Below, piece after piece: positions 2,002-64,000 of a DNA stretch of 64,000 nucleotides. The stretch lies in NCBI RefSeq assembly GCF_025766255.1, contig NW_026516755.1:1-64000 (forward strand). The letters run 5' to 3'. The notes beneath the pieces are model-generated. The model worked only from the letters and a program-made list of their open reading frames with translations. It was not told where the DNA came from and made no database searches. Positions within the stretch are counted from its first letter, which is position 1; each line of letters opens with the position of its first letter. This stretch comes from Zychaea mexicana (Eukaryota > Mucoromycota > Mucoromycetes > Mucorales > Lichtheimiaceae). Made by a program: the position numbers and the translations under genes.

Positions 2002-3477
2002 TCAGTCGAAATTACTGTCGTCTGTCCAAAAAATATCGTCAAACTCTGTCAACAGTAAGCTGAAAACGCTGGTCGGGATGCTGAGTGTTGCTGAGAAAAC
2101 GATACCGACATTTCGTACGGTCATTTTATTTGCGCCGGCGTTTTGTACGACTCGGATAAGATGAGCGCATAGTAACCGAAGGAGTGTGTAGTTTGCCAAA
2201 GGAAGCAAGGATATAATCCTTCCCAATTCGGTGACGCGTTCACGGCGATCAGGAAGATTGTCAACGTTTTCCATAATCTTTTTAAGCAAATCCGTCGTTA
2301 AAATGTTATCAGGTAGTTCTCGAAACCACATTTTAAGCAAGCTGGATACAACATGAGCATCGTAGGTTTCTTCGCCGGCTAGCAGATCGACATCCCCCTC
2401 TGCTCATCACCGTTTAAATATAAAGCATTGAGCAAGCAAGGAACGTATATGAGCACGATATTATATAGAAGATGTACATGATAATAAACTCAGCGCTAGC
2501 ATGAATGAATGTTACCTTTGTTAAATTTGGCCTTGAGCGCTCGGATCTTGGCCGCACTTCCACTGCGACGGTAAATACCTTCTTCTTTGATCGAATCTTT
2601 GGCCTCTGAATAGTCGATGCAACGATAAACAATAGCGGGCAGCTCATATCTCTTTGAAATTTTGGCCACCTTGATCGCCTCTTCGAGTGGAGCGCCAAAC
2701 ACTTGATTGGGCTCTCGTGCATGATCCTCGGTCGGTGGCGCTGTATAAGAGACATCATTGTTTTTGTTTTTATCTTGTTGACTTTTAAGGCTGCTCGATG
2801 GTTTAAGACTGATTTCTTTTGTAACATTGCTGCTGGAACTTGAAAACACCTTTTTAAACCATGGTACGCGTTTACTACTTGGTGTCTTGCTGGAGGTGTC
2901 GTCTTCCTTACTGTTACTAGTAGTGAAAGGAGATGAAGGGCTGGCAGTACTGCTATTGGTCTTTTGTAATTTTTCAATGTAGCTCACGGAATGGCGTTTC
3001 AGCGTTGCTGCATGATTATTTGGCCCCGAAATGAACGTTGGAAGACTCGACCGTCGACGGTTTGCTCGTATGTTATCATTGTTGTTGTTGTTATTGTTGA
3101 TAATGATGTTGCCGATATCTGCCTTTGTTGGTGAAACTTTTCGGTTACTCTTTTTCCGCCTGATTATACCGTTTGTAATATACTTGGATGCTGCGCTGTG
3201 GTCAATATGCTGCATCAAAGCTTCAATCCATGCATCGCGATTCTCATCCGTGTCTGCACAAAGTACATGTCGGGCAATGCCCCCTGGAGCCGATCTCTTG
3301 GGCTCAAGGATCAACAGAGCGTGTTGGAAAAGTGGCGCGTCTTTGCTGGCTACTTCTGAAGAAGAGGGCGGCGGCGATATTTGTCTTGCGATTCGTGCCT
3401 CAGTTAGATGGATCTTGCCAAAGCACTCACGACAAAATAAGATACCATCGGTATAAAATATAATCTGAATAACGCCT
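2002..3477 (-). CDS. PH-RhoGAP protein, Bem3-like, N-terminal part not found
   Basis: A GTPase-activating protein for Rho/Cdc42-type GTPases. On the minus strand a long exon (about 3477 down to 2516) joins 2399-2002 across an intron at 2400-2515. The exon begins with the end of a PH domain (around 'RHVLCADTDENRDAWIEAL'). A Ser/Asn-rich linker of about 130 residues follows, then the RhoGAP domain. The catalytic arginine loop is visible in 'EGIYRRSGS', and the conserved asparagine region in 'RNVGIVFSATL'. The PH-RhoGAP order and the lead-in 'VFGAPLEEAIKVA' match fungal Bem3-type proteins, which act in polarity and septin control. Bem3 proteins normally carry a PX domain and a long N-terminus. 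Neither is recognisable upstream here, so the 5' exons are unresolved or lost. The frame before residue 'KKVGV' near 3477 may be partly intron. Confidence 0.8.
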
Positions 3478-3735
3478 ACCTTTTTATATCCAAGAGGGTG
3501 TTAAAGCATCTGTCCAATAATTGATTCCATATGCGAACAACAAAGTCAAGTTCTGATGATTCGTTGGCGATATGACTGGGGATTATCCACCGATACAAAG
3601 AACAAATTTCCTTAAACGTCGATACAAGGCAGTACTCATCAAACTGTCTGTAAGGATCATATGGTGCGAGTATTTCAAGAAAACTAGTAGGATTATCCAC
3701 AATTTCTTTGTCTTGATCCTTTTACTGGGTGGTTG
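3476..3735 (-). CDS. Unassigned ORF upstream of the RhoGAP, possible gene fragment
   Basis: An open frame of about 80 residues reads 5' of the RhoGAP exon on the same strand and in another frame. It contains 'DPYRQFDEYCLVSTFKEI' and 'SSELDFVVRIWNQLLDRCF', and stops at the point where the RhoGAP frame begins. Its composition is protein-like (evenly spaced aromatic and acidic residues) and it does not look like part of a PX or PH domain. It resembles, from general impression only, multicopy uncharacterised proteins of Mucorales with an acidic 'xELDFVxxxW' block. It could be a remnant of such a gene inserted in front of the RhoGAP, or an N-terminal exon of the same gene read through a missed splice. 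Confidence 0.35.
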
Positions 3736-4003
3736 CTGATGATCTTCTCAACAATAGTTTGGCATGAATTCAAAATATTATCAATAGTAGAAGGTAAAGA
3801 ATTAGTTAATCAATATACGTTGGAGTATCATATATGTGGATTTAAAATCAAAGAATGGTCGACGTCTACTTTAGAAAGAAGTACTCACTGTTCATGATCA
3901 CAATTTCTTGTTACTTGACACACACGTCTTCAATGAATGCTTGTTAACCGCCTCACAAGTATAGATCCTTTATTATATGCCACTGCGAAGATAGAGAGTC
4001 ACA

Positions 4004-43637: not shown

Positions 43638-45902
43638 TTAAGAATCTTCTTTATTGTTCATAACAGACGATGAGAATTCCATTCTTTCCGTCTGCCTTCT
43701 ATCCAACTCTAATAATCTTTCAATATCCTGTTTGCGTTGTGCACGGATTTTCGAAAACGACTCGGCCAAACCAAGCTGTTCGCATGCATCCAGCGCAAGC
43801 GTGTAACTGGTATTATCAGGCAACACCTGGGCCGTCTTCATGTCGTGCCAGATATTCATGATTTGTGAAGTCTGCTTAGCCTTGTCGAGTGCGCTCATGA
43901 TTTCATTGTACACCGAAACCGGCAGCTTTACCCGCGTAGTTTTGGAGTCATCGTACACTTGCATGGCTTGTCGCAAATGGCCCGACGAGACCAATGTGTT
44001 GATGACAATGGTATGGGTAGCAAAATCCGGACGACAGTGGTTACGACGCATGGAGCGGTAGAGTTGGAGCATCTTTTGTACGGGCTGTGGTGTAGCTACG
44101 CCCGTTCTGCCATCGGTCTTCCACAAAATCTTGTCACCATCTTCCTCTTGAACCACAGCGGGACGAACCAGTTTCGACAGCAGAGTAAAATGTACATTAA
44201 AGCTTCGAGTATCCGGCCTGACCTTGAGTTCCGTCATCTTGTCCCACAAGTGTTCCGCCTGTTCCATATCTTCCGGTGCCAGCTGCTGTTTCCTTGACAA
44301 TAAGCCCAGAATCGAGTTGAATGTATAGACATTGGGTTGCACTCCAAACGATTCCATCTCCTTTAACAACGACATGGCCTTTTCCATGTCCTGGGTCTTG
44401 GCACACGCCGAAATCAACGATGTGTAAAGTACCACGTCTGGTTTAATACCTTGACTCTTGATCGTCTCATAAAAGTCAAAAGCAGCTTCCGCTGGTTGTG
44501 TTCGGTCTTTGACAAGCGTGTCCAAGATGATACCGTAGCTGTACACATCGGGTTCGACGCCGGCTTGAATCATTCTGTGGAAGATATCCAGGGCTTCTTT
44601 AAATCTGTTTTCCTTGACATAAGAGGCAATGAACGTGTTATAGTCGCGTGCGTTGCACTGCATTCCCAAGGCATGCATTTCGTCCAGCGTTTCTTCTGGG
44701 CTCCGTCCCATGGCCGTCAAGTGACTCCCATTGATCTCCACGTCTTTCGCAGCTTTCAAGTCGGCATACACCTTTTCCATTTGTTCCTTCATGCCATATT
44801 TGTGCAACATGCTGAGCATGACGTGGTAAGTACCCGGCGTAGGCGGTGGGTGGCCACGTTTGAGCATCGTACGGTATACGGCGAGTGCACCCTCTGGCTG
44901 ATTGACAGCACCATAGACTTGGATCATGGCATTGTACACCTCATCCCCTTCTTGATTGCTGTCTGCGGTTACTCCTTGTCCTCCTTCTTCGGCGGTAGTG
45001 GTGGTGGTGGTAGTGGTAATCAGATGCCGCTTTTTCAAATAGGCAGCATAAAAGACGCGAGCACCTTCGAGATCATCCCGATTCGCAAAAATCCAGATTA
45101 ATGCGCGGTACAATCCAGTCGTCTCGGGCCACATTTCACGTTCTTGAAGCGACTGGTAAAACTCGTGGATGTCGCCCAAAGATCCCAATCGTGTGATGCC
45201 GTTAATGACAGTGCTGACCGTGACTGGATCGGGTGGATAGTGTGATCGCATCATGCCGTCGATGACGAGTCTGGCCGATTTCAGGTCGCCGTGTGTGATG
45301 AACATATGGATCAACATATTGCAGCCACGTACAAACGTGTCACTGGCGAGTTGTCGTCGATGGATTTCTCTCAGGACGGTTTGCATTCGACGGATGGATT
45401 CTTGCGCACCGCCAAACCCTTCCTTTTTTATACGGCTGCATAACATGATAAAGTCACTGTCGTTCAGGGGGAGTTGCTTTTCGACGCGATCGGTAAATTC
45501 GGCCCATATAGCGTTCAAGTTTTGTGTAAAGTTCATTATGGTATGGTGCTTTTGTTCTTGTTGGTGTTCTTTTTGCTGAGACAGTTGTCGTACATGGTTA
45601 TTACCTTGTAGTTGTTGTTGCTGCTGCTGAGCCGGTTGTCCGGCATGGTTATGGCCTTCTTGTTGTTCTTGTTGTTCTTCGGTTTTTGTTGTACTTTTTG
45701 CCGCTGCTACTGTGCTATGTAACCGTCGTGGGTGTTGTGCCGACTTGACAAGCTGCTGCTGCTGTTGTTGATGAGCGGCGGTATTGTTGGTGGTAGTGGT
45801 GGTGGTGGTTCTGGTAAATTCTCGGCGTAAATGCAGTCGATTGAATCGAGTATTGCCAGCTGTCGCACGCCATGCCGAGCAACAACACTGTCGTATTGAC
45901 AT
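43638..45902 (-). CDS. Mitochondrial pentatricopeptide-repeat (PPR) protein
   Basis: A single-exon, 754-residue RNA-binding protein, probably acting in mitochondrial RNA processing, stability or translation. The N-terminus ('MSIRQCCCSAWRATAGNTRF', Arg-rich and free of acidic residues for about 30 residues) is a typical mitochondrial presequence. Thr, Gln and His-rich low complexity runs to about residue 115. From about residue 170 to 730 there are many 35-residue PPR units, for example 'EVYNAMIQVYGAVNQPEGAL', 'VYSYGIILDTLVKDRTQPAE' and 'VLYTSLISACAKTQDMEKAM'. A Thr run interrupts one unit near residue 300. Fungal PPR proteins diverge fast, so no symbol is given. No lesion seen, and the stop lies about 20 residues after the last unit. 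Confidence 0.92.
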   Translation of the reverse strand: MSIRQCCCSAWRATAGNTRFNRLHLRREFTRTTTTTTTNNTAAHQQQQQQLVKSAQHPRRLHSTVAAAKSTTKTEEQQEQQEGHNHAGQPAQQQQQQLQGNNHVRQLSQQKEHQQEQKHHTIMNFTQNLNAIWAEFTDRVEKQLPLNDSDFIMLCSRIKKEGFGGAQESIRRMQTVLREIHRRQLASDTFVRGCNMLIHMFITHGDLKSARLVIDGMMRSHYPPDPVTVSTVINGITRLGSLGDIHEFYQSLQEREMWPETTGLYRALIWIFANRDDLEGARVFYAAYLKKRHLITTTTTTTTAEEGGQGVTADSNQEGDEVYNAMIQVYGAVNQPEGALAVYRTMLKRGHPPPTPGTYHVMLSMLHKYGMKEQMEKVYADLKAAKDVEINGSHLTAMGRSPEETLDEMHALGMQCNARDYNTFIASYVKENRFKEALDIFHRMIQAGVEPDVYSYGIILDTLVKDRTQPAEAAFDFYETIKSQGIKPDVVLYTSLISACAKTQDMEKAMSLLKEMESFGVQPNVYTFNSILGLLSRKQQLAPEDMEQAEHLWDKMTELKVRPDTRSFNVHFTLLSKLVRPAVVQEEDGDKILWKTDGRTGVATPQPVQKMLQLYRSMRRNHCRPDFATHTIVINTLVSSGHLRQAMQVYDDSKTTRVKLPVSVYNEIMSALDKAKQTSQIMNIWHDMKTAQVLPDNTSYTLALDACEQLGLAESFSKIRAQRKQDIERLLELDRRQTERMEFSSSVMNNKEDS

Positions 45903-46223
45903 TTTGTAGATTGTTAATTTTTATGAGTGTGTGTGTGTGTAAACTGGAAATAAAAAAAAATGGTGTTCGGTTCGCTCGAGTGACTGTCATCGGAACATCG
46001 GGCCGACGTTCCGGGTGTCCTTTACTGTCAGACACAAAGCTTATTTTAGGCAAACAGCTCATACGCGTCTGTTGTGATGGATACTGGCATTTAAGAACCC
46101 ACGCATCTTTTGCGCTATCATACTGTTATTAAATACAACTAGCTAGCATGTAATTCAAGGCTAAGTTTCAATAGGAAGGGAAAAAGGATTAGCACAGAGC
46201 GGGTAGTAAGTAGTACATACATA
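45903..46223. other. Intergenic, upstream of the PPR gene
   Basis: Contains a GT run near 45928-45942. Nothing else recognised before the left transposon arm begins. Confidence 0.5.
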
Positions 46224-52516: not shown

Positions 52517-54839
52517 TTAAAACAAGTGGCGACGATTCGAGCTATCGGACAGACCAAAACGCGGCCGCAACGGCAACGATTGGGACCCGCGCTTCTTGTT
52601 ACTGACCGTGTCGTCACCGCGCGTGCCGGCAGGCGAGTTCTCATTGTCGATTCCGTCGAGGCTCTTGCGCTTTTTGTCCACCAGTTTCGGACGAAACGGC
52701 ATTGTCAATTGTGCCTTTGCCTTGGATGAACTATCCGCAAGCTTCCCGTGTCGCTGTTGTTGTTGTTGTTGTTGTTGGTGCAGACAATATTCAGCAGTGA
52801 TTTGGCTGTCTTTTTTAGCAGCCAAAGGTGCAGCAGCGGTTTTGATGATTTGCTCTGCAGCGATGACTTTTGGTGCCTGCTGGGGTGGTTCTGGATTGTC
52901 TCGATGGATTGCTTGGCTCGTGGCTTCTTGTGTTGTCCGATTTAGCCAGGGCTAATAATAATTAGGTCAACGTATACATGTGTGTTAGCAGATTTCAAAA
53001 GATGTTCCTCGAATTATATACGAATTGAAATACGTACGGGAATGTTTTCCTTGTTGTCCTGATGCAGTCGGATGGTCTTTACCGTCTTTTTGTCCGATGA
53101 TGGCGTGTTTGTGGATGCTGTTGCTGTCTTGTTGATGGTTTTGGTCTTGAGTGCAGGATCCTTGTGCCAAGACACGTTCCGACGCAACTTGTCGTCATAG
53201 ACCTTTTGTGACCAGCGATAAACCATGCGCTTGTAGATCGTTTCAACATCTTTTCTTTTGTCAACTGCTTCTTGAAGTGCCTAATTGAATATCCAGGTTA
53301 GCGTATTTCTCATGAGGGGATGTCTGTTGCTAAAGAGGTGTGGACGATTATAAACGGGAAAAGCAACAAGGAAGGAAGGAGTAGGAAAAGTGGTGGGGTA
53401 CCCTCACACACACATGTACGTAGGCGTGTGGTGCGTGTACGCTTTGTGCGAGGGTGGTAAAAAGAAAGAAAAAAGAAACGGATTGGAGTAAGCATACTAA
53501 ACGCATATTTTTCTTGTGCTTGACAAAAAGGGAGTGAGCACGTTCCACTTGGACATTTGCGCAGTCGCACATCAGACATAGCTCGCCAACCGATTTCAGA
53601 CTCCAATCGCGTAATTCAATTTCTTTGTTTGCACCGCCGCAGGTGAGATCTGAAAGCCGTACTCGCGTTGCACTGCCATCGCTTTGCAAGCCAAACAGCG
53701 TCACTTGACATCCGAACGCAATACCGTCTCCTGCTGATGATGATGCTTCATTTGTGTCGACAAACAGTGCCGCCTCGACACGCTTCGTTTCGATCAAGTA
53801 AGCTAGCTGTGCTCCGGACTCAAAGGGTGCTTGGATGTACTCGATCTTTTCTTTGTCCAGGTGCTATGATATGATCACACTGATATCAATAAAACAAGAA
53901 AGACGAGAGCGACGCGGGTGACAACTGTGCGTGTGTGTGTGTGTGTGTATGTGTGTGTGGGCGGGCGGGCGGGCGCGTGAGTGGGTGCCACAAGATGTAG
54001 AAGCAGAGATACGGGGGAAAGGGAAGGGGAGGACAGGTAGTTTATATATATATAGATTTACCTTCAAGAACGCATCCTTTTGTTCTTGCATGGTTTTTTC
54101 ATTGTCATTGCCACTGTCCATGTTCTCGTGATCGTCGCTTTTACCGCTGTGTTTCATGTATGTAAAGAAAAAGAGTGGGTGTATATGCGTGTGTGAAAGC
54201 AGCATCATTATCTATTAGCAAGATGTTGGGCTGCGTATACTTTCATGTATATGTTCATATATGTATGTAGTATGCGTGTGTACAAACACTAACCCCTTGG
54301 TTTTCTTTTTATCGCATGGCAATACGTTGCCTTCCACGACAACAAGAGGCGTCACATCGTATGACCGCAGAATGTCAAGTTGCTGTAGCAATGCGCCCTT
54401 TGCTGATCTGTTCAAAGTAGTTCAAGTTAAAACCGTAATTAGAATTTCATTCGTCAGTGCTGCGTAAAAACTAGAGCAAAAAAGACACGCACTCATTGTC
54501 ATTGAGAGTTTCGTCATTGTCATGGTTGTCATCGTCGTCGTCGTCGTCGTTCTTGTCGGTTTTATCGTTGTTGTTGTTATTATTGTTATCGTCGTTTTTA
54601 TCGCGGTCGTCGTCGTCGTTATTAGTAGAGTCAGTGGACAGTGGCGTAATAGTGCTGATATTCGTGTTCTTGTCGCCGCCATTGTCGACGACACCGTGAA
54701 CGGAATCACTAGAAACAAGGGAATGCCACACCACGCTGCCGCGACGACCATCTACCGCAACCGTCTTCCCGGCATATTCCTTAATGTGCACAGGCTGATG
54801 CACTGACTTGACAAGCTGGAGCAAGTCGGCAGAACCCAT
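52517..54839 (-). CDS. EXO1-like XPG-family protein with degenerate active site
   Basis: Six exons on the minus strand, 54839-54493, 54407-54294, 54146-54062, 53863-53498, 53280-53038 and 52951-52517, join in phase to 529 residues without a stop. The start 'MGSADLLQLVKSVHQPVHIK' with 'EYAGKTVAVDG' matches the EXO1 N-terminus, including the first metal-binding Asp. The next region is replaced by about 80 residues rich in Asp and Asn. 'DVTPLVVVEGNVLP' corresponds to the VFDG block with Asp changed to Glu. 'IQAPFESGAQLAYL' corresponds to APYEADAQLAYL with the second acid changed to Gly. 'ALFVDTNEA' replaces the TEDSD block, with the second Asp now Asn. 'LCLMCDCA' keeps the Asp of GCDY. The tail is Gln- and Lys-rich. 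Normal EXO1 is a 5'-3' exonuclease in mismatch repair and resection; this one is probably weak or inactive. Confidence 0.72.

Positions 54840-60440: not shown

Positions 60441-64000
<3,560 letters not shown>

Follow-up and report, generated by a model that had tools for sequence, protein, structure and literature searches.

The window analysed here, the first 64,000 nucleotides of contig NW_026516755.1 in the Zychaea mexicana genome assembly (GCF_025766255.1, 50.3 Mb), carries between positions 54839 and 52517 of its minus strand a gene related to the nuclease EXO1. As the initial annotation proposed, six exons with clean splice sites are read without a stop: five GT-AG introns join a single frame of 529 codons plus stop, and none of 2000 single-base shuffles of the coding sequence remained open (mean 25.8 stops). 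The gene occurs once in the assembly, the next-best matches past its own exons being three canonical EXO1 copies (contigs C15, C263, and C305), the second, canonical EXO1 for which that annotation had suggested looking. The deposited model BDB00DRAFT_633080 (P0001, 412 aa) follows the six-exon structure as far as residue ~345 (exon 5) and then diverges to a different 3' end, without the conserved tail; because it is the 3' end of the six-exon structure that matches orthologues across the tail, this structure looks better than the deposited record. Pfam XPG_N (residues 1-31 only) and XPG_I both match the protein barely above cut-off, and its closest PDB relative is human EXO1. With these two domains and a PIN fold it belongs to the FEN1/XPG superfamily. 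On balance, the gene is probably a catalytically dead EXO1 paralogue derived from a duplication in Mucorales and retained as a non-enzymatic protein.

Three protein searches yielded orthologues in Circinella umbellata, C. minor (partial), Phascolomyces articulosus, Fennellomyces sp., Rhizomucor pusillus, and Lichtheimia hyalospora, and the altered paralogue is thereby known from six genera. It is full-length in six of the seven species (five deposited models, and Zychaea read from the DNA); the C. minor protein (P0005), a 292-aa C-terminal part without the N-terminal half, was included in the tail counts and excluded from the tree, ligand table, and window ranking, and P0001, a model of the same Zychaea gene that differs at its 3' end, was excluded from tree and counts. 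A maximum-likelihood tree of 24 proteins groups the six full-length paralogues in one clade (support 100/100) with long branches. The clade is nested in Mucorales EXO1 (100/100 for the two together), making the paralogue an EXO1 by descent, and adjoins, at moderate support (93/87), the enzymes of Zychaea and Fennellomyces and two from Lichtheimia. Two introns are also shared with Zychaea canonical EXO1: FLK/HLDKEKI at the start of exon 4 (slash, intron position) corresponds in residue and phase to VVK/ALNAKKI, and NKENIP/PW agrees in residue, phase, and GTACGT donor. A third candidate, NMRL/ALQEA, is only near canonical TTDA/VLRHL, and since the alignment there has gaps, two shared introns are counted, not three. 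A single EXO1 duplication followed by divergence is the simplest account of these sequences. It would have taken place within Mucorales, the Lichtheimiaceae lineage being the probable setting; family membership was checked for Zychaea (Lichtheimiaceae), Circinella, and Rhizomucor, and the other paralogue genera were placed according to customary classification.

The columns of the seven EXO1 metal ligands (human numbering) were located in a MAFFT alignment via Cheilinus EXO1, which carries the expected residue at all seven positions. D30, D78, E150, D152, D171, D173, and D225 are kept together in 18 of 18 canonical rows, whereas no full paralogue retains the set; only D30 and E150 are invariant, with three or four of the seven kept per member. 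Listed in the order Zychaea, Circinella umbellata, Phascolomyces, Fennellomyces, Rhizomucor, and L. hyalospora, the changed columns read E, E, E, D, H, Q at D78; G, K, K, S, D, D at D152; N, K, D, gap, D, S at D171; D, D, E, D, E, D at D173; and A, A, A, A, R, Q at D225. The alignment bears out earlier calls of D30 and E150 as kept and of Glu and Gly in place of D78 and D152, but the count of three changed ligands in Zychaea rises to four. VDTN had been taken as a kept D171 followed by Asn for D173, whereas the alignment separates the two positions by an insertion and gives Asn at 171 and Asp (AGDGIAFG) at 173; single residues here are uncertain because the length of this loop has changed in all six full members. 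The supposed retention of D225 is doubtful, as the Zychaea column holds Ala with an adjacent Cys-Asp and the two least degraded members have Arg and Gln.

Parts of EXO1 that grip DNA have been altered as well. The WLH motif and helical gateway (arch) are replaced or deleted in Zychaea, Circinella umbellata, Phascolomyces, and Fennellomyces; Rhizomucor and L. hyalospora have a near full-length domain and gateway region, with changed ligands and with WLW and WLL as counterparts of WLH. The Asp/Asn-rich insert described in the initial annotation is real (approximately residues 32-115), but it is not what replaced the gateway across the family: the long insert is peculiar to Zychaea, Circinella and Phascolomyces have shorter acidic stretches, and in Fennellomyces the region is simply deleted without an insert. 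Given that two members keep a near full-length domain and the other four are without the arch, the altered ligands appear to accompany or precede loss of the DNA-gripping parts. The glycine that ends the helix-two-turn-helix (H2TH) loop is found in 18 of 18 controls and in none of the six full paralogues, making DNA binding like that of EXO1 unlikely. Catalysis has, with high confidence, been lost in the paralogue clade. The positions of these features are collected in Table 1.

Table 1. Features of the EXO1-related gene of Zychaea mexicana (window coordinates).
Feature	Position	Strand	Basis or remark
Pseudo-EXO1 gene, coding span including stop	52517..54839	minus	529 aa, six exons; orthologues
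Exon 1: PIN N-terminal strand MGSADLLQLVKSVHQPVHIKEYAGKTVAVDG and species-specific insert	54493..54839	minus	XPG_N match
Exon 2: second PIN strand with VEG (D78 position)	54294..54407	minus	
Exon 3: acidic linker where EXO1 has the helical arch	54062..54146	minus	
Exon 4: XPG_I core; E150/D152, D171/D173, and D225 regions altered	53498..53863	minus	
Exon 5: end of fold and DNKENIP	53038..53280	minus	
Exon 6: conserved tail PWLN...HLF	52517..52951	minus	
Ligand D30, kept (Asp30)	54750..54752	minus	alignment
Ligand D78, changed (Glu141)	54332..54334	minus	alignment
Ligand E150, kept (Glu197)	53819..53821	minus	alignment
Ligand D152, changed (Gly199)	53813..53815	minus	alignment
Rebuilt D171/D173 loop FVDTNEASSSAGDGIAFG	53711..53764	minus	alignment; single-residue assignment uncertain
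D225/H2TH remnant CDCANV, hairpin loop missing	53552..53569	minus	alignment
KEN-box block DNKENIPPW, split by intron 5 (52952-53037)	52946..53058	minus	motif, window ranking
Basic cluster KKRKS, putatively like a nuclear localization signal (NLS)	52661..52675	minus	window ranking
Basic block KKRGSQ, conserved, putatively NLS-like	52580..52597	minus	window ranking
Destruction-box (D-box) match RFGLSDSSN, 5 residues short of C-terminus	52535..52561	minus	motif, window ranking

When non-overlapping 9-residue windows were ranked by conservation over the six full members, DNKENIPPW came first, HIKEYAGKT second, and RFGLSDSSN third. The first contains a KEN box and the third a strict D-box (RxxLxxxxN), which together, in a disordered region, are the motifs expected of a substrate of the anaphase-promoting complex/cyclosome (APC/C). 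R1, L4, and N9 are the key D-box residues, the Hsl1 peptide GRAALSDITN being a strong example (PMC12401543), and the same pattern is given for yeast APC/C substrates (PMC3458821). Both motifs are present in seven of seven paralogue tails, and the tail is predicted with a low local distance difference test score (pLDDT) in the sole structure model containing it. Their blocks are nearly invariant despite a tail identity of 0.29-0.36 among Lichtheimia, Rhizomucor, and Zychaea. Canonical Mucorales EXO1 (n=11) has the KEN box in 11 of 11 and the strict D-box in 3 of 11. Among shuffled paralogue tails, 0.1 to 0.6% match the strict D-box and 2 to 10% contain KEN. For these counts tails were cut unlike one another, other EXO1s from residue 310 and paralogues from 40 residues before NKEN, and 15 of 115 other proteins (<450 aa) were dropped. 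In Zychaea and Fennellomyces, the sole pair with both genes, the domain of canonical EXO1 is more conserved than its tail (77% against 63%) and the order is reversed in the paralogue (tail 72%, domain 64%), as it is between the Circinella and Phascolomyces paralogues (68% and 65%). The tail motifs stand out; the shift of conservation to the tail holds in two of six pairs and is not general. Separately, nine plant EXO1s (P0009, P0059, P0060, P0063, P0068, P0069, P0076, P0113, and P0117) share the tail D-box RAPLKDIKN or a close variant with Ile or Val at position 7, which is absent from others such as the Arabidopsis hybrid P0122.

At the sequence level the paralogues form a clade, each full member has changed ligands and lacks the H2TH glycine, and the PIN core and tail blocks are kept. 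The closest comparison is with canonical Mucorales EXO1 (Zychaea P0019 and Fennellomyces P0007), which has the same PIN/XPG fold, N-terminal SVHxPxHIKEYAGK, and NKENIPPW block, and in Zychaea the two introns; the paralogue differs in its altered or lost metal ligands, WLH, arch, and H2TH loop, and in having a C-terminal block of its own with a D-box match in each member. Mkt1 and other XPG-family proteins with non-nuclease roles also have this fold, but the paralogue clade sits inside Mucorales EXO1 (in a tree without Mkt1 proteins), and Pfam scans gave no PF12813 (XPG_I_2, Mkt1/asteroid type) match to the window protein (E cut-off 1) or to the five members scanned (cut-off 0.001). The presence of canonical EXO1 and of a six-genus clade with its own conserved blocks supports the pseudo-nuclease proposed at the outset, and protein conservation suggests that the paralogue is under selection. 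Among the roles then envisaged for it (scaffolding, DNA-binding, or regulatory), EXO1-like DNA binding has become unlikely with the loss of the H2TH glycine, and the tail motifs favour a regulatory one. Control of an active sibling is a common role of pseudo-enzymes.

A mechanism can be proposed in which EXO1 was duplicated and the active site of one copy was altered with loss of catalysis. The disordered tail of this copy would bind an APC/C coactivator (Cdh1 or Cdc20) through the KEN box and C-terminal D-box, and the protein level would then rise and fall with the cell cycle; the chances for and against such binding and cycling are about even. Through the fold and tail that it has in common with EXO1, the paralogue might further compete for EXO1 partners or for the degradation machinery, and so tune the amount or placement of active nuclease, a step that we put forward tentatively. 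It may be a plain substrate, a decoy that spares EXO1, or an inhibitor resembling Acm1, each of which is a candidate. More speculative, and rather unlikely, is the idea that fungal EXO1 is itself an APC/C client through a KEN and D-box tail, with the dead duplicate serving as a degron decoy that buffers or blocks its destruction; if true, a decoy derived from EXO1 would set the cell-cycle timing of DNA end resection. CtIP would offer a parallel as a resection factor destroyed by APC/C-Cdh1, albeit an unrelated protein, and the same source, in the portion available, lists EXO1 under SCF-Cyclin F and SUMO (PMC4993767).

Several observations weigh against a dead, degron-bearing paralogue. The D173 column is acidic in six of six members (4 Asp, 2 Glu); an acid at 173 may well survive, and Fennellomyces retains Asp at 78. 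Windows unrelated to degrons (HIKEYAGKT, DKKRKSLDG, and KEIELRDWS) are likewise conserved. Neither motif alone is rare: of 100 other EXO1 tails (proteins of at least 450 aa, in a set that leans to KEN), 34 contain KEN and 11 the strict D-box. At D-box position 7 all seven paralogues have Ser, Gly, or Asn in place of the common Val, Leu, or Ile (PMC12401543). In four of six paralogue pairs the tail is 4 to 10 points below the domain in identity, and it is below in two other EXO1 pairs too. Canonical EXO1 and paralogue were seen together in two of the six genera, Zychaea (three canonical copies) and Fennellomyces; for Circinella, Phascolomyces, Rhizomucor, and L. hyalospora, none of the best 120 of 263 matches was named as a canonical EXO1, which is no proof of absence. 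Those matches come from the third protein search, in which the best 7997 candidates were scored with a profile of four rows, all having NKEN, and they lean to KEN accordingly. Lastly, a term search of the main text of a yeast APC/C substrate screen did not find Exo1 named (PMC3458821).

The alternative that survives best is a scaffold for mismatch repair or resection, its tail blocks binding MutL, MSH2, PCNA, or importin and its KEN and D-box matches incidental. This is possible, though less probable than a regulatory protein recognized by its degrons. The tails of yeast and human EXO1 bind partners of the MutL/MSH2/PCNA type, and the conserved KKRKS and KKRGSQ blocks resemble NLSs, but the first- and third-ranked windows are the two APC/C-like motifs; no systematic search for partner motifs was made. 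A pseudosubstrate inhibitor of the APC/C in the manner of yeast Acm1, holding Cdh1 or Cdc20 by KEN and D-box without efficient turnover and thereby sparing EXO1 and other substrates, is unlikely. Acm1-type inhibitors also carry both motifs in a disordered region, as all seven tails do, and an enzymatic function is probably gone; however, the paralogue has a nuclease-derived PIN fold, no ABBA or A motif was noticed in a look by eye, D-box position 7 is non-aliphatic, and the KEN box, being present in canonical Mucorales EXO1 too, looks like an ordinary substrate motif. That the nuclease is still active with a rearranged active site is very improbable: invariant Asp30 and Glu150, the conservative D78E change, and the acids at 173 and, in Fennellomyces, at 78 would agree with it, but D152, the D171/D173 loop, D225, the arch, and the H2TH glycine are jointly altered in four members, and some members have His, Gln, Arg, or Ala at 78 and 225. 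Still less probable is a pseudogene drifting after EXO1 duplication and open by chance, as altered ligands, a low-complexity insert, and long clade branches might suggest; the protein is full-length in six of seven species, the gene tree is orderly, the Zychaea frame did not survive shuffling, and the six-genus clade has its own conserved blocks, among which those with KEN and D-box hardly vary. A gene-model artefact, with different splicing restoring the ligands, is scarcely credible despite the other 3' end of the deposited model, for none of the GT-AG candidate introns listed within exon 1 (at least 42 nt, from base 60 on, exon 2 fixed) brings back WLH or the gateway, and the changed codons lie in exons common to the deposited model and the orthologues.

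Read as an EXO1 duplicate that lost catalysis, the clade provides a graded series from the near-complete domains of Rhizomucor and L. hyalospora to Zychaea, Circinella, Phascolomyces, and Fennellomyces, where the arch is lost as well. It shows what remains once catalysis is no longer selected, including two motifs resembling APC/C degrons, one of them common to canonical Mucorales EXO1, and it raises the testable question of whether the APC/C destroys EXO1. Neither a dead EXO1 paralogue nor EXO1 as an APC/C client was found in the portion of the open-licence literature available, which is weak evidence of novelty; an Arabidopsis paper (PMC4191939) does contain the phrase 'EXO1 paralog', and three others mention EXO1, the anaphase-promoting complex, and the KEN box in one text.

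The canonical EXO1 copies of Zychaea are near-identical, that on C15 (L011) matching those on C263 (L012) and C305 (L014) at 98-99% over about 1.8 kb. In the C305 copy the sequence ITENSDLL puts Asn at D171, and this copy may therefore be weakened or dead. It also contains 3.7 units of a 343-bp tandem repeat (L014 622-1892), with KEN-box exon ends recurring every 343 bp; in the C263 copy (L012 ~2619-3140) the same piece is present twice, where the tandem-repeat program gave no report. KEN boxes seem to have been multiplied. Another EXO1-like locus on contig C13 (L013 ~3040-3980) carries LAGNSYTRSLPG (D225 replaced by Asn), with an N-terminal part that, judged by eye, is out of frame in a plain reading; it would be a second decayed or intron-rich XPG-family copy. 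A 704-aa open frame on contig C31 (101154-101408, L025) matches PF12813 and is perhaps of the Mkt1 type. Within the window, no mobile elements were noticed by eye among the neighbouring open reading frames at 42-64 kb, with no Pfam comparison made. The flanks hold, again by eye, a long pentatricopeptide-type open reading frame (43641-45920) and a PEX1-like AAA gene (61351-63829), which look like an ordinary host neighbourhood.
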